The translations under genes were made by a program, and so were the position numbers. This document shows, piece after piece, positions 2,910 through 23,498 of a DNA stretch of 23,580 nt. Under the pieces are notes generated by a model, which saw only the letters and a list, made by a program, of their open reading frames with translations, was not told where the DNA came from and searched no databases. This DNA is from a virus, in the IMG/VR virus record IMGVR_UViG_3300000228_000042, positions 1 through 23,580 of that record, one strand, 5' to 3'. Position 1 is the first letter of the stretch. Every line of letters starts with the position of its first letter.

Positions 2910-3710
2910 TTAGAACTCGTACCAAACCACAATAGTTGGGGAGGAACTGGAGCCTACCGAGTAAGTCGCCCCGGGGGGAACCACGCATGACGCGGTAAGG
3001 GTAAAGGTAGCGGAGGTACTGAATGTGCTACAGATACTTGGATGTTGCACTAAAATGCTATTGACGTAAATAGTAAACTCGCCCACAGTGGGGGTGGATA
3101 CCGGCGGCAACGTGACCTGGATCACAACCGATACATACAGCGGCCGCCCAGTGTTATTGGTGTACAGTACATTTATCGCCCGGCTTGCTGTCTGATCGGT
3201 GTACGCCGACGCGCCCGCGCCGAGAGTCTGTGAAATCGGTGGTGCGTTGGCTGAATTGAGCGCGGCAGGTGCGACGTTGAACACCTGACCAGCGTTGCCG
3301 TTCAACGCGGCGAATTGCTGCTGCGCCTGTGCTAGCGGAAGCGCTTCAGTGCCTATCGCAGCAGTTGCAACTTGGAACACCTGGCCAGCGTTGCCGTTCA
3401 ACGCGGCGAACTCCTGCTGCGCCTGTGCTAGCGGAAGCGCTTCGGTGCCTATTGCAGCAGTTGCGACTTGGAACACTTGACCCGGATTCCCGTTCAATGC
3501 GGCGAATTGCTGCTGCGCCTGTGCTAGCGGAACTGCCCCGGCTGGATTTGCCGTTGGGGCAACAAAGAACTCCTGCGACGCAAGACCCCCCACAGCCGCT
3601 GCGCCGCTGTTCACGTCGTCGACAATCTGATTGAAGTTTGCCGTTACTGGTGTGGCATCAACGGGGTCGCCGTTTGTGATGTTGTACGGCAAGGGGTTGA
3701 TAATTGGCAT
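2910..3710 (-). CDS. Tail fibre / receptor-binding protein, repeat-bearing paralogue A
   Basis: A 266-residue protein. The N-terminal head (MPIINPLPYNITNGDPVDAT) is clearly related to that of the next gene. Residues about 45-155 hold 32-residue repeats (PLAQAQQQFAALNGN, QVFQVATAAIGTEAL). The C-terminal about 105 residues (INVLYTNNTGRPLYVSVV onward) are beta-rich, ending in VVWYEF, and resemble a small receptor-binding tip. The tip is unrelated by eye to that of paralogue B. It follows the nozzle-type gene immediately, at the usual place for a fibre or spike. Enzymatic residues of a depolymerase were not seen. The fibre assignment is inferred from modular architecture and position. Confidence 0.77.
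   Translation of the reverse strand: MPIINPLPYNITNGDPVDATPVTANFNQIVDDVNSGAAAVGGLASQEFFVAPTANPAGAVPLAQAQQQFAALNGNPGQVFQVATAAIGTEALPLAQAQQEFAALNGNAGQVFQVATAAIGTEALPLAQAQQQFAALNGNAGQVFNVAPAALNSANAPPISQTLGAGASAYTDQTASRAINVLYTNNTGRPLYVSVVIQVTLPPVSTPTVGEFTIYVNSILVQHPSICSTFSTSATFTLTASCVVPPGATYSVGSSSSPTIVVWYEF
3268..3555 (-). repeat. 96-bp tandem repeats in fibre gene A
   Basis: The anchor TTCAACGCGG (one TTCAATGCGG variant) occurs at 3301, 3397 and 3493 on the plus strand, exactly 96 bp apart. The units differ by only a few bases and encode the fibre shaft repeats. Copy number could change by slippage or recombination without breaking the frame. Confidence 0.88.
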
Positions 3711-5327: not shown

Positions 5328-6001
5328 CAGAACCCCGTAATTTTTGACGGCGGCAGACTGCCACCCCCTGCACGGAATGAGTTGCCAAGGCTGACAGTCT
5401 GCGCGTGGTTCTCCCGGTCGCCCTGCATCTTGAGGAATGCGGCCAGCTTCGCCTCTGCCTCAGCAGCATACTGCATCTGCCGGGTATCGTCAGTGAGCCT
5501 CATCACGTCACCAGCAAGTACCGTCAGCAGGTAGTCACTGTCTGGAAACCACGGAACCTCGCTGCTTGTGGCAGCATTCACAATGTCAGGGGGTTGCCGC
5601 CAGTAACGCAGGGTATAGGCGATTGTGGTGTTGGGCATCGGGTACAGGTACAGCGTGACCGGGGTCGTGCTTGGGTCACTGCTATACATGGTCGGATAGG
5701 CCATCGCCACACTGCCGACGTTCGTCCGGTCGTAGTCCTTGAGGCTTAACTGGCGCATAGCCTGCGGCAGTCCGCCAATGTAGTACCACAACTCATGCGC
5801 CCGGATGTAGTCTGCCGGAAGTGCGTAGGACTGCACCCCCGCAGGGAGGGTGAATGTCGTTGTTTCCAGCAGAACATCGAAGTCATACCGCCGCGCAAGG
5901 GAGGACAGACGCCCGTTCAGCAGATCAGCAGCCTGGGCGGTGTACCCCGGCGCTTTGGCGATCTGCAAGGCGTAGGTCACAAGCTGCGCTGCGGTCAGCA
6001 T
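5327..6001 (-). CDS. Head-tail adaptor protein (SU10/T7 gp11-type)
   Basis: A 224-residue protein. It starts MLTAAQLVTYALQIAKAPGY, then LARRYDFDVLLE, LPADYIRAHELWYY, YPMPNTTIAYTLRYWRQPP, WFPDSDYLLTVLAGDVMRLTDD and a C-terminal AEAEAKLAAFLKMQGDREN, ending FRAGGGSLPPSK. This run of elements is typical of adaptor proteins that form a ring under the portal in podoviruses. The long helical C-terminal part (170-205) would contact the portal. GGAG lies about six bases before the ATG. It overlaps the nozzle-type gene by ATGA. The family call is good by pattern; no database check was possible. Confidence 0.82.
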   Translation of the reverse strand: MLTAAQLVTYALQIAKAPGYTAQAADLLNGRLSSLARRYDFDVLLETTTFTLPAGVQSYALPADYIRAHELWYYIGGLPQAMRQLSLKDYDRTNVGSVAMAYPTMYSSDPSTTPVTLYLYPMPNTTIAYTLRYWRQPPDIVNAATSSEVPWFPDSDYLLTVLAGDVMRLTDDTRQMQYAAEAEAKLAAFLKMQGDRENHAQTVSLGNSFRAGGGSLPPSKITGF

Positions 6002-6004
6002 GGC

Positions 6005-6382
6005 TTACTCCGCAAGCTTGCGAGTCGCTTCAAGATGCACGTTGCCGCGCTCGATGTCCGCCGTCATCTCGTCGATGCGGGCGCGGGTACGCGCGGTAGT
6101 CTCGTCATCGGGGCGCGCGCTGTCGCGCTTACTATACTGGGCTAGGTCAAGCTCCTGATTGCGCAGGGCAGCCTGCTTCTCGGCGATCATGGCCTCAAGC
6201 AGGGGCACTTCACCCCGGGCACGTTGACGCGCGACAACCCCACGCAGCATGTCCAGTTTGGCAGAGAAGTCCGCTGGGGTCGCCGATTCAGGCATATTGA
6301 AGTTGATGGACAGATTGACACCATCCTGAGACAACGTGGCACTGAACTGCGCCATATACCCAATATCTTTTTGCTCGCTCAT
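6005..6382 (-). CDS. Coiled-coil protein of unknown function in the morphogenesis operon
   Basis: A 125-residue protein. The first about 40 residues look beta-like (MAQFSATLSQDGVNLSINF). The rest is strongly helical and charged (about 45-125), with heptad-like Leu/Ala spacing and KR/DE pairs, suggesting a coiled coil. It lies between the capsid and adaptor genes, so a minor head or connector role is likely but not shown. The ATG overlaps the TGA of the upstream gene (ATGA), with GGAG eight bases upstream. The protein was not recognised. Confidence 0.7.
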   Translation of the reverse strand: MSEQKDIGYMAQFSATLSQDGVNLSINFNMPESATPADFSAKLDMLRGVVARQRARGEVPLLEAMIAEKQAALRNQELDLAQYSKRDSARPDDETTARTRARIDEMTADIERGNVHLEATRKLAE

Positions 6383-6723
6383 CGGTAAGCTCCGCCGTTA
6401 ATGGTCAGTCGTTGTGGTTTCGGGGAAAAGCCTGTGCGCTGGCCGCGAACTTCTTCCTCATGCCCCCATGCACGGAACATCACGTCCCGCAGACTGGATG
6501 CCTGGGCTGCGGCCACCTTATAGGTCATGCCATGCTGGAATACGCGCCCGTCGATGCGCACGTCCGGCGCATGGGGTGGTAAGTCGATCAGGACTTCCTC
6601 GTAGTCCACTTCGGGCTTGACTACAACCTCTTTCGGGCCGGGGTCAGACTCACCAGGGCGCTTACTGCGGCGTGGAGTTGCCAAGGCATCGGCAATGGCG
6701 TCGTTTGCGTCGTCAATGTCCAT
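6379..6723 (-). CDS. Small protein downstream of the capsid gene, unknown function
   Basis: A 114-residue protein. The N-terminal 40 residues are charged and probably disordered (DDANDAIADALATPRRSKR, then DPGPKEVVVKPEVDY). A compact C-terminal part follows (VRIDGRVFQHGMTYKVAAAQA, then SSLRDVMFRAW). The ATG at 6723 is preferred because it has GAAAG just upstream; the in-frame TTG at 6735 is the alternative. The gene lies 50 bases after the capsid gene, a position used in other phages for head-completion or decoration proteins. No motif supports a choice between these. Confidence 0.65.
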   Translation of the reverse strand: MDIDDANDAIADALATPRRSKRPGESDPGPKEVVVKPEVDYEEVLIDLPPHAPDVRIDGRVFQHGMTYKVAAAQASSLRDVMFRAWGHEEEVRGQRTGFSPKPQRLTINGGAYR

Positions 6724-13709: not shown

Positions 13710-13836
13710 CATCATGGCAAAACCAAAAAGGGTAAAAATGAGCGCCTATATCATGATGAACGTACATTATGACAAAACCAAAAAGGGACATTATGACAAA
13801 ACCAAAAAGGGACATTATGACAAAACCAAAAAGGGT
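13710..13836. repeat. 24-bp repeats, three in tandem plus one diverged copy
   Basis: Units at 13765-13788, 13789-13812 and 13813-13836 each begin CATTATGACAAAACC and end AAAAAGGGA (GGGT in the last). A diverged copy lies at 13710-13733 (CATCATGGCAAAACC). The last tandem copy and the diverged copy are both followed by AAAAAT. The array lies between the divergent arms and upstream of terL, so it could be a protein-binding array, a packaging-recognition region, or simply a duplicated gene start. Confidence 0.9.
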
Positions 13837-14063: not shown

Positions 14064-14234
14064 ATGAAACGCTATATTGCAAAGCAAATCGGCATGTTCT
14101 ATGCCGTGATTGACACCCAGACCGGCGGAGTATTGCGCAGCTATCGCAGCAGCGCAGAAGCTACCCTCGATGCTCACCGGCGCAATGCTTGTGAGGCGCG
14201 TGGTAACGCCCATGCATCGTTTCTGGGGGTGTGA
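14064..14234 (+). CDS. 56-residue protein of unknown function
   Basis: The protein begins MKRYIAKQIGMFYAVIDTQT, then GGVLRSYRSSAEATLDAHRR. A short beta hairpin (IGMFYAVIDTQTGGVL) is followed by an Ala/Arg-rich helix. It was not recognised. The ribosome-binding site is weak (GGGAAC about 11 bases upstream). The next gene starts one base after its stop, so the two are probably co-translated. Small proteins of this form are common in early regions of phages. It may derive from the same early-gene pool as the neighbours. Confidence 0.6.
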   Translation: MKRYIAKQIGMFYAVIDTQTGGVLRSYRSSAEATLDAHRRNACEARGNAHASFLGV

Positions 14235-14235
14235 C

Positions 14236-14487
14236 ATGACAACCTCACACGGACTCATCGACACAATAAACAGCCTGGCAGAACAAATCAGCGCACATAC
14301 TGGCCAGCCCTGCGGTATCACCCTGCAACCCGGTGACCCCAATATTGGAGCCTACTGGGTGGCATTCTCAGACAATGCGGGACTCATCCTAGCGGCACCG
14401 GACGGGGATGCGCTCTATGCGCAGATCAGGGCGTACAGCCAAGGATACGCTGCGGCGACCTCAACACAATCAAAGGGTCAACCATGA
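14236..14487 (+). CDS. Small early protein, copy 1 of the HTGQPC family
   Basis: An 83-residue protein. Its core SLAEQISAHTGQPCGITLQ, then YWVAFSDNAGLIL and DGDALYAQIRAYSQGYAAA is closely matched by the 84-residue protein at 17575-17829 and by a truncated copy at 14484. Pattern: amphipathic N-terminal helix, two or three beta strands, C-terminal helix. Function unknown. The start at 14236 is supported by homology to the second copy and by its position one base after the upstream stop; the frame stays open further upstream but would overlap the preceding gene. Confidence 0.7.
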   Translation: MTTSHGLIDTINSLAEQISAHTGQPCGITLQPGDPNIGAYWVAFSDNAGLILAAPDGDALYAQIRAYSQGYAAATSTQSKGQP

Positions 14488-16395: not shown

Positions 16396-16451
16396 AGCAG
16401 CTTGCCCTGCCCGCAACGGCCCTTAAAATTTGCCTTGCAGTATCTGGGAAC

Positions 16452-16483
16452 CTGAGAATCTGAGAATCTGAGAACCTGAGAAT
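16452..16483. repeat. Four 8-bp tandem units before the clamp gene
   Basis: CTGAGAAT, CTGAGAAT, CTGAGAAC, CTGAGAAT occur consecutively in the 110-base gap before the clamp gene at 16506. This could be a regulatory or slippage-prone spacer; no function can be read from it. Confidence 0.75.
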
Positions 16484-16505
16484 CCTTGACAACGAAAGAA
16501 CGAAC

Positions 16506-17123
16506 ATGACAACGCTTACTATCCTCTCTCATATCCTCCCGGCAATGGCGATCCTTGCGGCGGATAAAAAAGACATCCGGGATCACATCCGGGGCGTGTA
16601 CCTTGAAGCTTCAGCAAAGGAGCTCCGGTTTACCGCGACCAATGGCGTAGTTATGGGGGTCTATCGGATTGAGCAGGATAATCCTGACATAACGGAAACG
16701 ATCAAATGCATCATCCCTGCTGAACTCATCGCGGGAATTAAGGGAAAAGATAATGTACTGCTGACCATTAGCGAGCCGCTGGACGAACACCGATTGCAAC
16801 GGAAATTAACCCTTGCTCAAAGCTGGGCTATGCAATCCATGCAGTCAGTCTCCCGAACCTATCCCGACTATCGCCGGACAATCCCGGCAACAACCTCCGG
16901 AGAACCGGCGCAGTTTGACCCTGACCTTCTCATCCGGCTGAAAAAATTTGGCAAAGCACTACAAGAAAACAAAGGTTATTTCGCCATTGCATATAACGGT
17001 GAATCTGCGGCGATTGCGGATTTTCATTTGGGAAACCTGCTGGTGATCATTATGCCCCTCCGAAAAGACGAAAAGACTTACGCAGACCCCGAATCCCCCG
17101 CGTGGTCGCGTGAGTTTATTTAA
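16506..17123 (+). CDS. DNA sliding-clamp-like protein (DnaN-related, shortened)
   Basis: A 205-residue protein. Features in DnaN order: LAADKKDIRDHIRGVYLE (17-34), TATNGVVMGVYRI (43-55, compare ATDGHRLAV), IIPAELI (69-75, compare IVPRKGV), RTYPDYRRTIP (117-127, compare RFPDYRRVLP), FDPDLLIRLKKFGKAL (137-152), and a final NLLVIIMPLR (177-186, compare AYVVMPMRL). It is little more than half the length of bacterial DnaN (about 366), so one clamp domain is missing or the protein forms a higher oligomer. A clamp would tether the phage polymerase to DNA. The family A polymerase lies 4.2 kb downstream on the same strand. The initiation site is weak; Met14 is an alternative start. Confidence 0.75.
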   Translation: MTTLTILSHILPAMAILAADKKDIRDHIRGVYLEASAKELRFTATNGVVMGVYRIEQDNPDITETIKCIIPAELIAGIKGKDNVLLTISEPLDEHRLQRKLTLAQSWAMQSMQSVSRTYPDYRRTIPATTSGEPAQFDPDLLIRLKKFGKALQENKGYFAIAYNGESAAIADFHLGNLLVIIMPLRKDEKTYADPESPAWSREFI

Positions 17124-17294: not shown

Positions 17295-17578
17295 ACAATA
17301 TCACCTTTGATCCTGATAATCTGGAAGAGATGGAGCGAGCACATTATGCAGATAATCGCGTAGAACTTGCAAACCTGCTGGATATGATAGTCGACGCCAA
17401 GGGGGATACAGAATACACTAAAAAGATGCTGGATAATGCAGAAGAGGAGATCGATTCACTTACAAAGAAACTCTTCCTTGTGTTTGAAATGGTCGAAGAT
17501 GCAGATAACCTAGAGAAACTGCAAAAATTCATCGCCCGCATCGAAGTGAATTTAATCATGTCTGGAGTAAAACCGTGA
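17291..17578 (+). CDS. Acidic helical protein of unknown function
   Basis: A 95-residue protein, Glu/Asp/Leu-rich and almost wholly helical (about 10-90, for example YTKKMLDNAEEEIDSLTKKL), consistent with a coiled coil. The ATG at 17291 overlaps the preceding stop (ATGA); an in-frame ATG 15 bases upstream is inside the previous gene. Its own stop overlaps the GTG of the next gene. Small acidic early phage proteins often bind host proteins, but no target can be inferred here. Confidence 0.65.
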   Translation: MNNITFDPDNLEEMERAHYADNRVELANLLDMIVDAKGDTEYTKKMLDNAEEEIDSLTKKLFLVFEMVEDADNLEKLQKFIARIEVNLIMSGVKP

Positions 17579-17829
17579 ACCACTCAGACGAAATCATCGA
17601 CGCGGCGCGCATCCTGACGAAGCAAATCAGCGCGCATACCGGGCAGCCCTGCTCCATTACCCTGCAAGCTGGTGACCCCGTCGAGGGGGAATACTGGACA
17701 GTCTTTTCGGACAACGTGGACATCTTCCTGACTGCGCATGACAGCGACGCGCTCTATGCGCAGATCAAAGCCTACAGCCGGGGCTACGCCGCCGCACTCT
17801 CAACACCCTCGAATGGAGTCAAGCTATGA
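17575..17829 (+). CDS. Small early protein, copy 2 of the HTGQPC family
   Basis: An 84-residue protein, starting at GTG with GGAG upstream and overlapping the preceding stop (GTGA). It shares KQISAHTGQPCSITLQAGDP, YWTVFSDN and ALYAQIKAYSRGYAAALS with the protein at 14236-14487. The shared Cys in GQPC and the conserved C-terminal helix suggest the copies keep a common fold. Function unknown. The copies lie more than 3 kb apart, on either side of the regulator and clamp genes. Confidence 0.7.
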   Translation: MNHSDEIIDAARILTKQISAHTGQPCSITLQAGDPVEGEYWTVFSDNVDIFLTAHDSDALYAQIKAYSRGYAAALSTPSNGVKL

Positions 17830-18538: not shown

Positions 18539-18850
18539 GTGGCTACAAAACATTTACGAAGCATGAAGCCGAGCGAGGCATTGAGATTAGCGCGGGATAA
18601 GTTGATGGACACCAAAGATCGCTGGCCCTTTATCTGCAACGCCTTACTCAAACTAAATACTCCCGGCGCACGCGAAGCACAAGCGCATATCGAAGACCTG
18701 ATATTCCCGTATAAAACTTACAATGATTGGTTAAAGCATAACCATCCAGAATGGTACTCAAAATACGAACAAACCCCCGGCGCGCCCCTGGAATCCCGCT
18801 TGTGCTGGATTGACAACATGATCGACTACTGGGAATCGAAAGGAGAGTAA
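18539..18850 (+). CDS. MKPSEAL-family early protein, copy 1
   Basis: A 103-residue protein, starting at GTG with AGGAG seven bases upstream. After eight residues it reads MKPSEALRLARDKLM, then RWPFICNALLKLNTP, AREAQAHIEDL and a C-terminal ESRLCWIDNMIDYWESKGE. A near copy lies at 23211-23498, which starts directly at MKPSEAL. The two are almost identical over the first about 45 residues and at the end, and differ in the middle. Helical, function unknown. An alternative start at the internal ATG (18563) would make the two copies equal in length. Confidence 0.7.
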   Translation: MATKHLRSMKPSEALRLARDKLMDTKDRWPFICNALLKLNTPGAREAQAHIEDLIFPYKTYNDWLKHNHPEWYSKYEQTPGAPLESRLCWIDNMIDYWESKGE

Positions 18851-21304: not shown

Positions 21305-23059
21305 ATGGCCATTATCTATATTGACTTTGAAACCTATTACGACAAGGATTATTCCCTGCGCAAAATGTCAACCGAGGCATATATTCGTGACCCTCGGTTT
21401 GCCGTGCACGGTGTTGCCCTTGCTGTGGACGATGCAGCCCCGCTATGGGTATCAGGGGATAGGGTCGCCCCAGCCCTGCACCACCTACATGCCCTGTACC
21501 CCCGCGCAACTTGGGTGGCACACAATGCGCAGTTTGATATGGCGATTTTGTCCTGGCACTACGGTATCCGCCCAGTGTGGATTTTGGATACCCTCAGCAT
21601 GGCGCGACTGGTCAACCCGCATGGGAAGCATTCCCTCGCAGCGTTGGCGCAGGAATACACGTTGGGCACTAAAGGGGACGCGCTGGTCAAAACGCTAGGT
21701 GTCCGCACACTGACCCCGGCGCTGATGCAGGAGCTAGCCGACTATTGCGTGCAGGACGTGGCTTTGTTGTGTGGCCTCTCTGCCGCGCTAAAGGACGCGC
21801 TGACAGTCCGGCTCTCAGTCGAGAGATACGCCCGCGAGATGCAGCTTATTGACCTGACCGTGCGCTTGTTCACTGAACCTGTGCTGGAGCTTGATATGGG
21901 GTCGCTGGAGTCCAGTATGGAGGCGCTAGGTGCAGACCGCGACGCGCTCATTGCTGCCTCTGGCCTCACTGAATCTGTGCTGATGAGTAACCCGCAGTTC
22001 ACCGCGGCGCTTGCTGCGATAGGCGTTGACGCGCCCGCGAGCCTGTCCAAGACTGACCCGGACATGCTCTCGCTGCTCAGTCACCCCCGCGCGGCTCCTA
22101 TCATCCGTGCACGGCTGGCGGCTAAAAGTGTGTCCCAGCTTCGGCGCACAGAGCGGTTCCTTGAGGTCGCAGCGCGCGGCACGCTGCCTGTGCCGCTCAA
22201 ATACTTCGGCGCACATACCGGGCGATGGTCTGGGGCTGATGGCCTCAACATGCAGAACCTGAACCGGGGGTCTGCCCTGCGCAAATCCATCCTCGCACCA
22301 GAGGGGCATATGCTGGTTGTTGTGGACTCCAGCCAGATCGAGGCGCGCGTGTTGGCGTGGCTGGCCGATGAGGCCTCGCTGTTGGATGCGTTCGCAGAGG
22401 GGAAAGACGTTTACGTTGAGTTCGCACGCGCAATTTGGCCTGGGGGTGAGATCAGCGCGGAGAAGCGGTTTGTCGCAAAGACCTGCGTGCTGGGCCTGGG
22501 GTATTCCGTCGGAGCAGCGAAACTGCATGAGCAGATCGTGCTCAAGCAACCGAGCGTGACTCTGGAAGAAGCGCGTGAGTTTGTGGCGGTCTACCGGATG
22601 ACCTATACGGGCATTGTCCGATTATGGCGGGTTGCTGATATGGCGCTGCGCTGCATGATGTCCGGGCAGCCGGCGCAGATCGTCCGCGGCATGACAACAG
22701 GGCACAACGCGCTGCAACTGCCGTCTGGCCGCTGGTTGCAGTACCCGGGCCTGCGCATGGTTTCTGGCGGGTTTGAGTATGGTCAGGGCGCAAGCACGCG
22801 CAGGCTATACGGCGGTGCGCTGGTGGAAAATATCACACAAGCCATCGCGCGCGACATTGTGGCCGACCAGATGCTGGCACTCAGCAAACGCTACAAGGTA
22901 GTCATGATGACGCACGACGAGATAGTGCTGTCTGTACCGGAGGAGGACGCAGACGAAGCATTCGCCACGGCGAAGACAATTATGCGCCTTACACCGCAGT
23001 ATGTGCGGGGGTTACCGTTGGATTGCTCAGGCGGTTACGCGCGTGAGTATTCTAAATAA
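21305..23059 (+). CDS. polA: Family A DNA polymerase with 3'-5' exonuclease
   Basis: A 584-residue protein. The exonuclease domain has YIDFETYY (Asp7, Glu9), VAHNAQFD (Asp78) and YCVQD (Asp151). The polymerase domain has motif A VVVDSSQIEARVLAWL (Asp341; usual form DYSQIELR), motif B EKRFVAKTCVLGLGYSVG (386-403) and motif C VMMTHDEIV (His537, Asp538, Glu539). All catalytic acids are present, so it should be active and proofreading. No 5'-3' exonuclease domain is present, as in many phage PolA proteins. It copies the phage genome, perhaps with the clamp-like protein. Start: the ATG has a weak site; a GTG at 21275, in frame with AGAGGAAG upstream, would add ten residues. Confidence 0.92.
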   Translation: MAIIYIDFETYYDKDYSLRKMSTEAYIRDPRFAVHGVALAVDDAAPLWVSGDRVAPALHHLHALYPRATWVAHNAQFDMAILSWHYGIRPVWILDTLSMARLVNPHGKHSLAALAQEYTLGTKGDALVKTLGVRTLTPALMQELADYCVQDVALLCGLSAALKDALTVRLSVERYAREMQLIDLTVRLFTEPVLELDMGSLESSMEALGADRDALIAASGLTESVLMSNPQFTAALAAIGVDAPASLSKTDPDMLSLLSHPRAAPIIRARLAAKSVSQLRRTERFLEVAARGTLPVPLKYFGAHTGRWSGADGLNMQNLNRGSALRKSILAPEGHMLVVVDSSQIEARVLAWLADEASLLDAFAEGKDVYVEFARAIWPGGEISAEKRFVAKTCVLGLGYSVGAAKLHEQIVLKQPSVTLEEAREFVAVYRMTYTGIVRLWRVADMALRCMMSGQPAQIVRGMTTGHNALQLPSGRWLQYPGLRMVSGGFEYGQGASTRRLYGGALVENITQAIARDIVADQMLALSKRYKVVMMTHDEIVLSVPEEDADEAFATAKTIMRLTPQYVRGLPLDCSGGYAREYSK

Positions 23060-23073
23060 ACAAGGAGATGATC

Positions 23074-23214
23074 ATGGAAGCCTTCAGACTGATTTTTTCG
23101 TGGGTAGCAGCAATTCTTGGAATATTAGCCCTGGTTTCTTACATCGGCATTTTGGGTTTTGGGCTTTATATTGTCGTTGCCGGCGTGTTTTTCGCCTGGT
23201 GGGAGGGGCGATGA
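23074..23214 (+). CDS. 46-residue membrane protein, copy 2
   Basis: MEAFRLIFSWVAAILGILAL, then a hydrophobic run to VFFAWWEGR. It matches the protein at 17142-17294 in design, in end sequence (FF-x-WWE-x-R) and in its ATGA overlap with the next gene. AAGGAG lies seven bases before the ATG. Here the partner downstream is an MKPSEAL-family gene, whereas copy 1 is followed by the acidic helical protein, so the duplication is mosaic. Confidence 0.7.
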   Translation: MEAFRLIFSWVAAILGILALVSYIGILGFGLYIVVAGVFFAWWEGR

Positions 23215-23498
23215 AACCGAGTGAGGCATTGAGATTAGCGCGGGATAAGTTGATGGCCTCTAAAAATCGCTGGCCCTTCATCTGCAACGCCTTACTCAAA
23301 CTAAATACTCCCAGCGCACGCGAAGCACAAGCGCATATCGAAGACCTATTAAAACCATATCAGATTTACGATACATGGTTAGAGCATCACCATCCAGAGC
23401 AGTTCAAAAAATATATTAACACCCCCGGCGCACATACGGAAGCCCGTCTGTGCTGGATTGATGACATGATTGACCACTGGGAATCGAAAGGAGAATAG
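23211..23498 (+). CDS. MKPSEAL-family early protein, copy 2
   Basis: A 95-residue protein starting at MKPSEALRLARDKLM, then RWPFICNALLKLNTPSAREA, with the C-terminus ARLCWIDDMIDHWESKGE. The first about 140 bases are nearly identical to the gene at 18539-18850; the middle (about residues 48-75) is clearly changed. The start at 23211 overlaps the membrane-protein stop. Function unknown; conserved ends with a variable middle suggest selection on the central part or gene conversion of the ends. Confidence 0.72.
   Translation: MKPSEALRLARDKLMASKNRWPFICNALLKLNTPSAREAQAHIEDLLKPYQIYDTWLEHHHPEQFKKYINTPGAHTEARLCWIDDMIDHWESKGE

Follow-up and report, generated by a model that had tools for sequence, protein, structure and literature searches.

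The window, by which we mean the whole 23,580-nucleotide stretch of IMG/VR virus record IMGVR_UViG_3300000228_000042, contains an intact open reading frame with an ATG start and a TAA stop that encodes a short protein resembling the bacterial beta clamp (Table 1). Directly upstream of this gene, in the space between it and a helix-turn-helix gene, are 5.4 copies of an 8-base repeat, ATCTGAGA (16442-16484). A pair of small paralogues that share 63% identity across 81 residues is encoded on the plus strand on either side of the stretch that holds the clamp-like gene (14110-14484 and 17575-17826).

The original prediction placed this protein in a phage with a family A DNA polymerase, and two Pfam matches confirm that the polymerase is real. 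Its gene lies 4.2 kb downstream of the clamp-like gene on the same strand. Just after it sits one of two copies of a small gene (18539-18847 and 23211-23495, plus strand) that share 77% protein identity and match PHROG 8421 (unknown function). A 24-base unit, ACATTATGACAAAACCAAAAAGGG, occurs three times in perfect copies at 13764-13835, between the divergent late and early gene blocks, and may be regulatory. On the minus strand, the neighbouring genes 2070-2906 and 2910-3710 contain 96-base tandem repeats (2434-2636 and 3261-3532) that encode AQADFAALNGN.GQVF.VATAAIGTEALPL-type units.

Table 1. Features of the clamp-like gene and the polymerase gene, in window coordinates
Feature	Coordinates	Strand	Basis or remark
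Beta-clamp-like protein, 205 aa, putatively cleft-only; whole ORF with stop	16506..17123	+	ORF call, profile matches, AlphaFold2, Foldseek
Predicted equivalent of beta domain II, residues 1-134 (E. coli beta about 128-256; profile-aligned 136-256)	16506..16907	+	Profile alignment, model
Cleft/DNA loop, residues 23-30, DIRDHIRG (E. coli DVRYYLNG, 150-157)	16572..16595	+	R25 invariant; H27 and I28 unique
Cleft strand, residues 45-50, TNGVVM (E. coli TDGHRL, 172-177)	16638..16655	+	V48 where 115/122 have His
Cleft linker, residues 119-126, YPDYRRTI (E. coli FPDYRRVL, 241-248)	16860..16883	+	Family alignment
Predicted equivalent of second half of domain III, residues 135-186 (E. coli beta 318-365), ending in MP(M/L)R	16908..17063	+	Profile alignment, shuffles, model
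Cleft C-terminal strand, residues 181-187, IIMPLRK (E. coli VVMPMRL, 360-366)	17046..17066	+	Family alignment
C-terminal tail past the normal clamp end, residues 187-205, with P198-A199-W200	17064..17120	+	Family alignment
Family A DNA polymerase of 584 aa (start codon ATG at 21305) that includes a 3'-5' exonuclease	21305..23059	+	PF00476 E 4e-30, PF01612 E 4e-11

A family of short beta-clamp relatives

The window protein is related to the beta clamp (DnaN). Taken alone, it matches the Pfam central-domain model DNA_pol3_beta_2 (PF02767) with an E-value of 9e-4, which is below the cut-off of that family, and a phmmer search against solved clamps in the PDB gives 7.5e-4. PHROG 947, a clamp family named 'DNA polymerase processivity factor', matches at 2e-8, and PHROG 3007 matches at 3.5e-22 over residues 3-189 of 205. 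A profile built from 122 relatives (alignment A4) finds 55 distinct PDB sequences at E <= 0.01, and the matches listed by name are all beta clamps, the best of them at 3e-33. The DnaN-like motifs of the original prediction are therefore real, as the Pfam, phmmer, PHROG 947 and family-profile results all point to clamps.

Structure prediction also returns the clamp fold. The AlphaFold2 model of the window protein (pLDDT 90, pTM 0.85) has, among the Foldseek matches listed from the PDB, only beta clamps or clamp complexes, and the top viral hit is a phage protein of 202 aa annotated 'DNA polymerase III, beta chain, central' (TM 0.82). A canonical member of the family (L048) is predicted with the same elements (pLDDT 95, pTM 0.90), and its listed PDB matches are clamps only.

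Single-sequence searches of viral and genome contigs found no close relative of the window protein. In named phages, tblastn finds BcepC6B gp31 (38% over 79%), several Pseudomonas phages, gp15 of Bcep43 and Bcep781, and Sinorhizobium phage AP-16-3. With an alignment as query, two overlapping scans of IMG/VR gave 257 and 234 places encoding relatives. These yielded about 130 distinct proteins, almost all in the range of 180-220 aa. The 122 of these that were aligned have a median length of 212 aa (quartiles 199-214), so the length of about 205 residues noted earlier is a family trait and not the mark of a broken gene. When the family profile was run against 36 random contigs, two matched, both with open frames of 370-385 aa that are presumably full-length clamps.

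Short phage proteins annotated as 'DNA polymerase III beta subunit' (BcepC6B gp31, Bcep43/Bcep781 gp15, AH2 gp20 and TC7_030; PHROG 3007) fall in the same length class. Homology searches picked up BcepC6B gp31, Bcep43 gp15 and TC7_030, whose alignments with the window protein cover most of the length at 26-37% identity, whereas AH2 gp20, which has 209 aa (PMC3483164), is linked to it by fold (Foldseek, I6NLH9).

PHROG 3007, which all 122 members match, is named 'RusA-like Holliday junction resolvase'. PHROG 12598 and the re-annotated Burkholderia records NC_005887.1 gp31 and NC_005342.2 gp15 carry the same RusA-like name. No RusA family appears in Pfam scans of the window protein up to an E-value of 10 or of the 122 members at 1e-3, and Bcep43 has a separate RusA gene, gp22, while gp15 was originally noted as a 'DNA Pol III b subunit fragment'. 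The lack of RusA similarity and the predicted beta-clamp fold refute the resolvase reading, to which we attach practically no credence. The naming of PHROGs 3007 and 12598 looks wrong, their members being beta-clamp fragments.

Domain architecture and ring-closing surfaces

In the profile alignment and in the predicted models, the architecture is that of beta domain II fused straight to the second half of domain III. Profile positions 8-134 align with E. coli beta 136-256 and positions 136-186 with beta 318-365, so that residues 257-317 are skipped; when E. coli beta was shuffled 1000 times, the score of the C-terminal match was never reached. Segments fall in the identical order when the profile is aligned to two full-length phage clamps, Sinorhizobium phage AP-16-3 gene 74 (352 aa) and L165 (326 aa). 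Both models contain one full clamp domain, which in the window protein has elements from strand E2-6 to E108-113, followed by a helix and three strands.

Pfam matches across the family agree with this arrangement. PF02767 is matched by 117 of the 122 members (E <= 1e-3), whereas the domain I model PF00712 is matched by a single member, which is not the window protein, and the domain III (C-terminal domain) model by none; the window ORF itself begins at domain II. Past the normal clamp end, a P-[AS]-W motif is conserved (P in 96/104, W in 76/112). This predicted one-and-a-half-domain architecture is widespread among viral contigs, hundreds of which encode relatives.

Compared with E. coli DnaN (366 aa), the window protein shares domain II, the C-terminal half of domain III, the fold and, at the level of the family, the cleft residues and the MPMR end, but at 205 aa it lacks domain I and residues 257-317 and has the extra P-x-W tail. 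The two full-length phage clamps likewise share domain II, the cleft motifs and the MPMR end, but they retain the domain III segment that the window protein lacks, and of the two only AP-16-3 showed a weak domain I segment. In L165, a clamp of 326 aa (5695-6672 of its contig), the first half of domain III is still present and the C-terminus reads MPMRL; this protein may be a full-length neighbour of the short clamps. E. coli itself makes a short dnaN product, beta*, which loses the N-terminal part, keeps all of domain III and is reported to be a trimer. The window protein is similarly shortened at the N-terminus, but unlike beta* it is without half of domain III.

Canonical clamp rings close by packing domain I of one subunit against domain III of the next. 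In E. coli beta, I272 and L273 sit at the dimer interface, and changing both gives a monomeric clamp (PMC3022782). With domain I and the I272/L273-bearing residues 257-317 missing, neither canonical ring-closing surface is left, and we infer that no canonical closed ring is formed.

These losses bear on the two roles first suggested for the shortened form, a trimer and a host-clamp decoy. A trimer of the PCNA or gp45 type needs two full clamp domains per subunit, and the models contain one and a half; domain I and the dimer-interface half of domain III are missing, and no clamp loader (PF13177) was found in the contigs of 49 relatives. The missing interfaces led us to reject both a trimer and the poisoning of host rings by a foreign subunit. 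The decoy idea finds no support where it would require mixing into host clamp rings, while the kept cleft leaves the protein a candidate decoy for the partners of the clamp.

Conservation of the peptide-binding cleft

The retained part of the clamp frames the peptide-binding cleft between domain II and the C-terminal strand, and the cleft positions are the most conserved residues of the short family. Among the 122 members, in E. coli numbering, R152 and P242 are present in every one, Y154, L155, G174 and M362 in 99%, P363 in 98%, H175 and R246 in 94%, D150 in 93%, T172 in 89% and R365 in 85%. Other than R152, H175, G174 and the 362-366 end, the positions on this list are ones that we take to be cleft residues from established knowledge. 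Published work places R152, H175, G174 and the 362-366 end in the cleft (PMC3716654, PMC3022782).

The window protein keeps R152, G174, P242, R246 and M-P-x-R, and its cleft is nonetheless divergent relative to those of BcepC6B gp31, Bcep43 gp15 and TC7_030. It alone of the 122 has histidine at Y154, isoleucine at L155 and valine at H175, and it also has aspartate at Y153. As the gene is intact, we read these changes as altered specificity, and the sequence suggests that binding specificity in the window phage is probably changed; the cleft may be altered or weak, and loss of peptide binding is possible.

Association with family A polymerases

Family A polymerases are present in 31 of 49 long family contigs compared to 4 of 36 random contigs (Fisher p 1.4e-6), although a caveat to these counts is that IMG/VR contigs are often fragments. 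The random controls were 36 contigs of 24-66 kb drawn via two arbitrary 14-15-base patterns. Since the relatives are not independent, we collapsed them to 29 lineages, of which 14 always have the polymerase, 14 never do and one is mixed, and the association weakens to p 0.0017. The clamp-like gene directly follows the polymerase gene in BcepC6B and abuts or overlaps it in several other lineages; in a large group that includes the window, the two genes are 2.5-5 kb apart.

The 18 family contigs without a family A polymerase have no match to Pol III alpha or DnaB and one marginal match to Pol B. In the lambda-like phage TC7, a replication P-like protein is annotated and no polymerase occurs within the stretch viewed. 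No canonical clamp-binding motif is conserved among the family A polymerases of these phages. Nor are such motifs overrepresented among the ORFs of phage loci with the clamp-like gene, where 16 were counted and 20.2 would be expected.

The original prediction was that a self-encoded clamp would be a different processivity solution for a family A polymerase. The co-occurrence, well above background, keeps this a possibility, whereas the polymerase-free half of the lineages and the lack of a motif conserved in the polymerases speak against it. A clamp and a polymerase I have, moreover, already been annotated together: in cyanophage S-SRP02, a 'DNA polymerase III beta subunit', its length not given, is annotated along with DNA polymerase I (PMC8790148).

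Discussion

Our best explanation, which we hold at somewhat less than even confidence, is that the gene encodes a cleft-only mimic of the beta clamp, a docking competitor or adaptor for clamp-binding peptides, with host proteins as the likelier partners. More tentatively still, we suggest that the relatives may constitute a widespread phage family of such mimics, soluble competitors or adaptors that would rewire the traffic of host replication proteins and never encircle DNA. Phages would have trimmed the bacterial clamp to a minimal fragment still able to frame the partner-binding cleft. The protein would be soluble and monomeric or non-ring, and its cleft would bind clamp-binding peptides, most likely those of host replication and repair proteins, which carry the near-universal bacterial clamp-binding motif. 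The occupied partners, such as the host polymerase, clamp-loader and repair factors, would be drawn off the host clamp during infection, while the phage replicates, in many lineages by its own family A polymerase.

Several observations favor host partners. The cleft hardly varies although the phage polymerases differ greatly or are absent; about half of the lineages have no detectable family A polymerase; clamp-binding motifs are neither enriched in the phage loci nor conserved in the polymerases; and a monomeric E. coli beta with an intact cleft was inferred to be dominant-negative in vivo (PMC3022782). Against the mimic in the window phage itself stand the changes at Y154, L155 and H175, each unique among the 122. 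An accessory factor for the polymerase would account at least equally well for the association with family A polymerases and for the direct adjacency of the two genes in BcepC6B-like phages and others, and a decoy for Pol III subunits is awkward in TC7, given its replication P protein and the lack of a polymerase in the stretch viewed.

Such an accessory factor has precedents in the herpesvirus proteins UL42, a monomer, and UL44, a C-shaped dimer, which have the clamp fold without an obligatory closed ring (PMC9690074). By analogy, the short phage protein could be a non-ring processivity factor that presents one face to a family A polymerase and its helical inner face to DNA and needs neither ring nor loader, a reading that we regard as the main rival of the mimic and as somewhat less likely. 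Polymerase co-occurrence and the adjoining or overlapping genes speak for it, and the absence of a loader from the 49 contigs fits loader-less viruses that use non-ring clamps (PMC9690074). In the window protein, moreover, residues 139-157 form a basic helix with a net charge of +3, and helix 1 is enriched in K/R across the family. UL42 and UL44, however, are highly positive and bind DNA directly, whereas the short phage proteins have no sequence relation to them and are near neutral (net charge -1 for the window protein, family mean -0.3). The polymerase-free lineages, with their 18 contigs, and the lack of a conserved motif in the polymerases count against this reading as well, and a cleft that is near-invariant across very different polymerases argues for a constant partner.

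A true ring of non-canonical form, for example a homotetramer, in which 4 x 1.5 gives 6 domains, or a dimer that completes a domain III from two half-domains, is allowed by the domain arithmetic and by the modular way in which clamp folds assemble, and the half-domain is modelled confidently despite missing half of its usual packing partner. We nevertheless consider it improbable, as both canonical interfaces are absent and, with no loader in the contigs, the host loader would need to recognize a very different ring. More improbable again is the reading that a host dnaN was captured and has since decayed into a remnant that now serves no function. The window copy has indeed lost several near-invariant residues, but its ORF is intact and its predicted fold confident, and about 130 distinct proteins from many lineages share the same architecture and length, with invariant positions.

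Individual short members, such as Bcep43 gp15 and AH2 gp20, had already been noted. In the literature, which we covered in part, mentions of these proteins are at the level of annotation, with no account of a one-and-a-half-domain architecture and no functional test. Within that coverage, the architecture described here appears to be new.

Whether the short proteins act on host partners or on phage polymerases, the names of PHROGs 3007 and 12598 feed automatic phage annotation, and correcting them is worthwhile. If the proteins work as UL42 does, bacterial viruses would have their own version of non-ring processivity factors, here for family A polymerases. If they are instead cleft-only mimics, a common and misnamed phage family would be a natural competitor for the docking site that almost every partner of the bacterial clamp uses and that antibiotic research already targets. 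Such a family would supply a cleft reagent that can be genetically encoded, and it would represent host takeover of a new kind.
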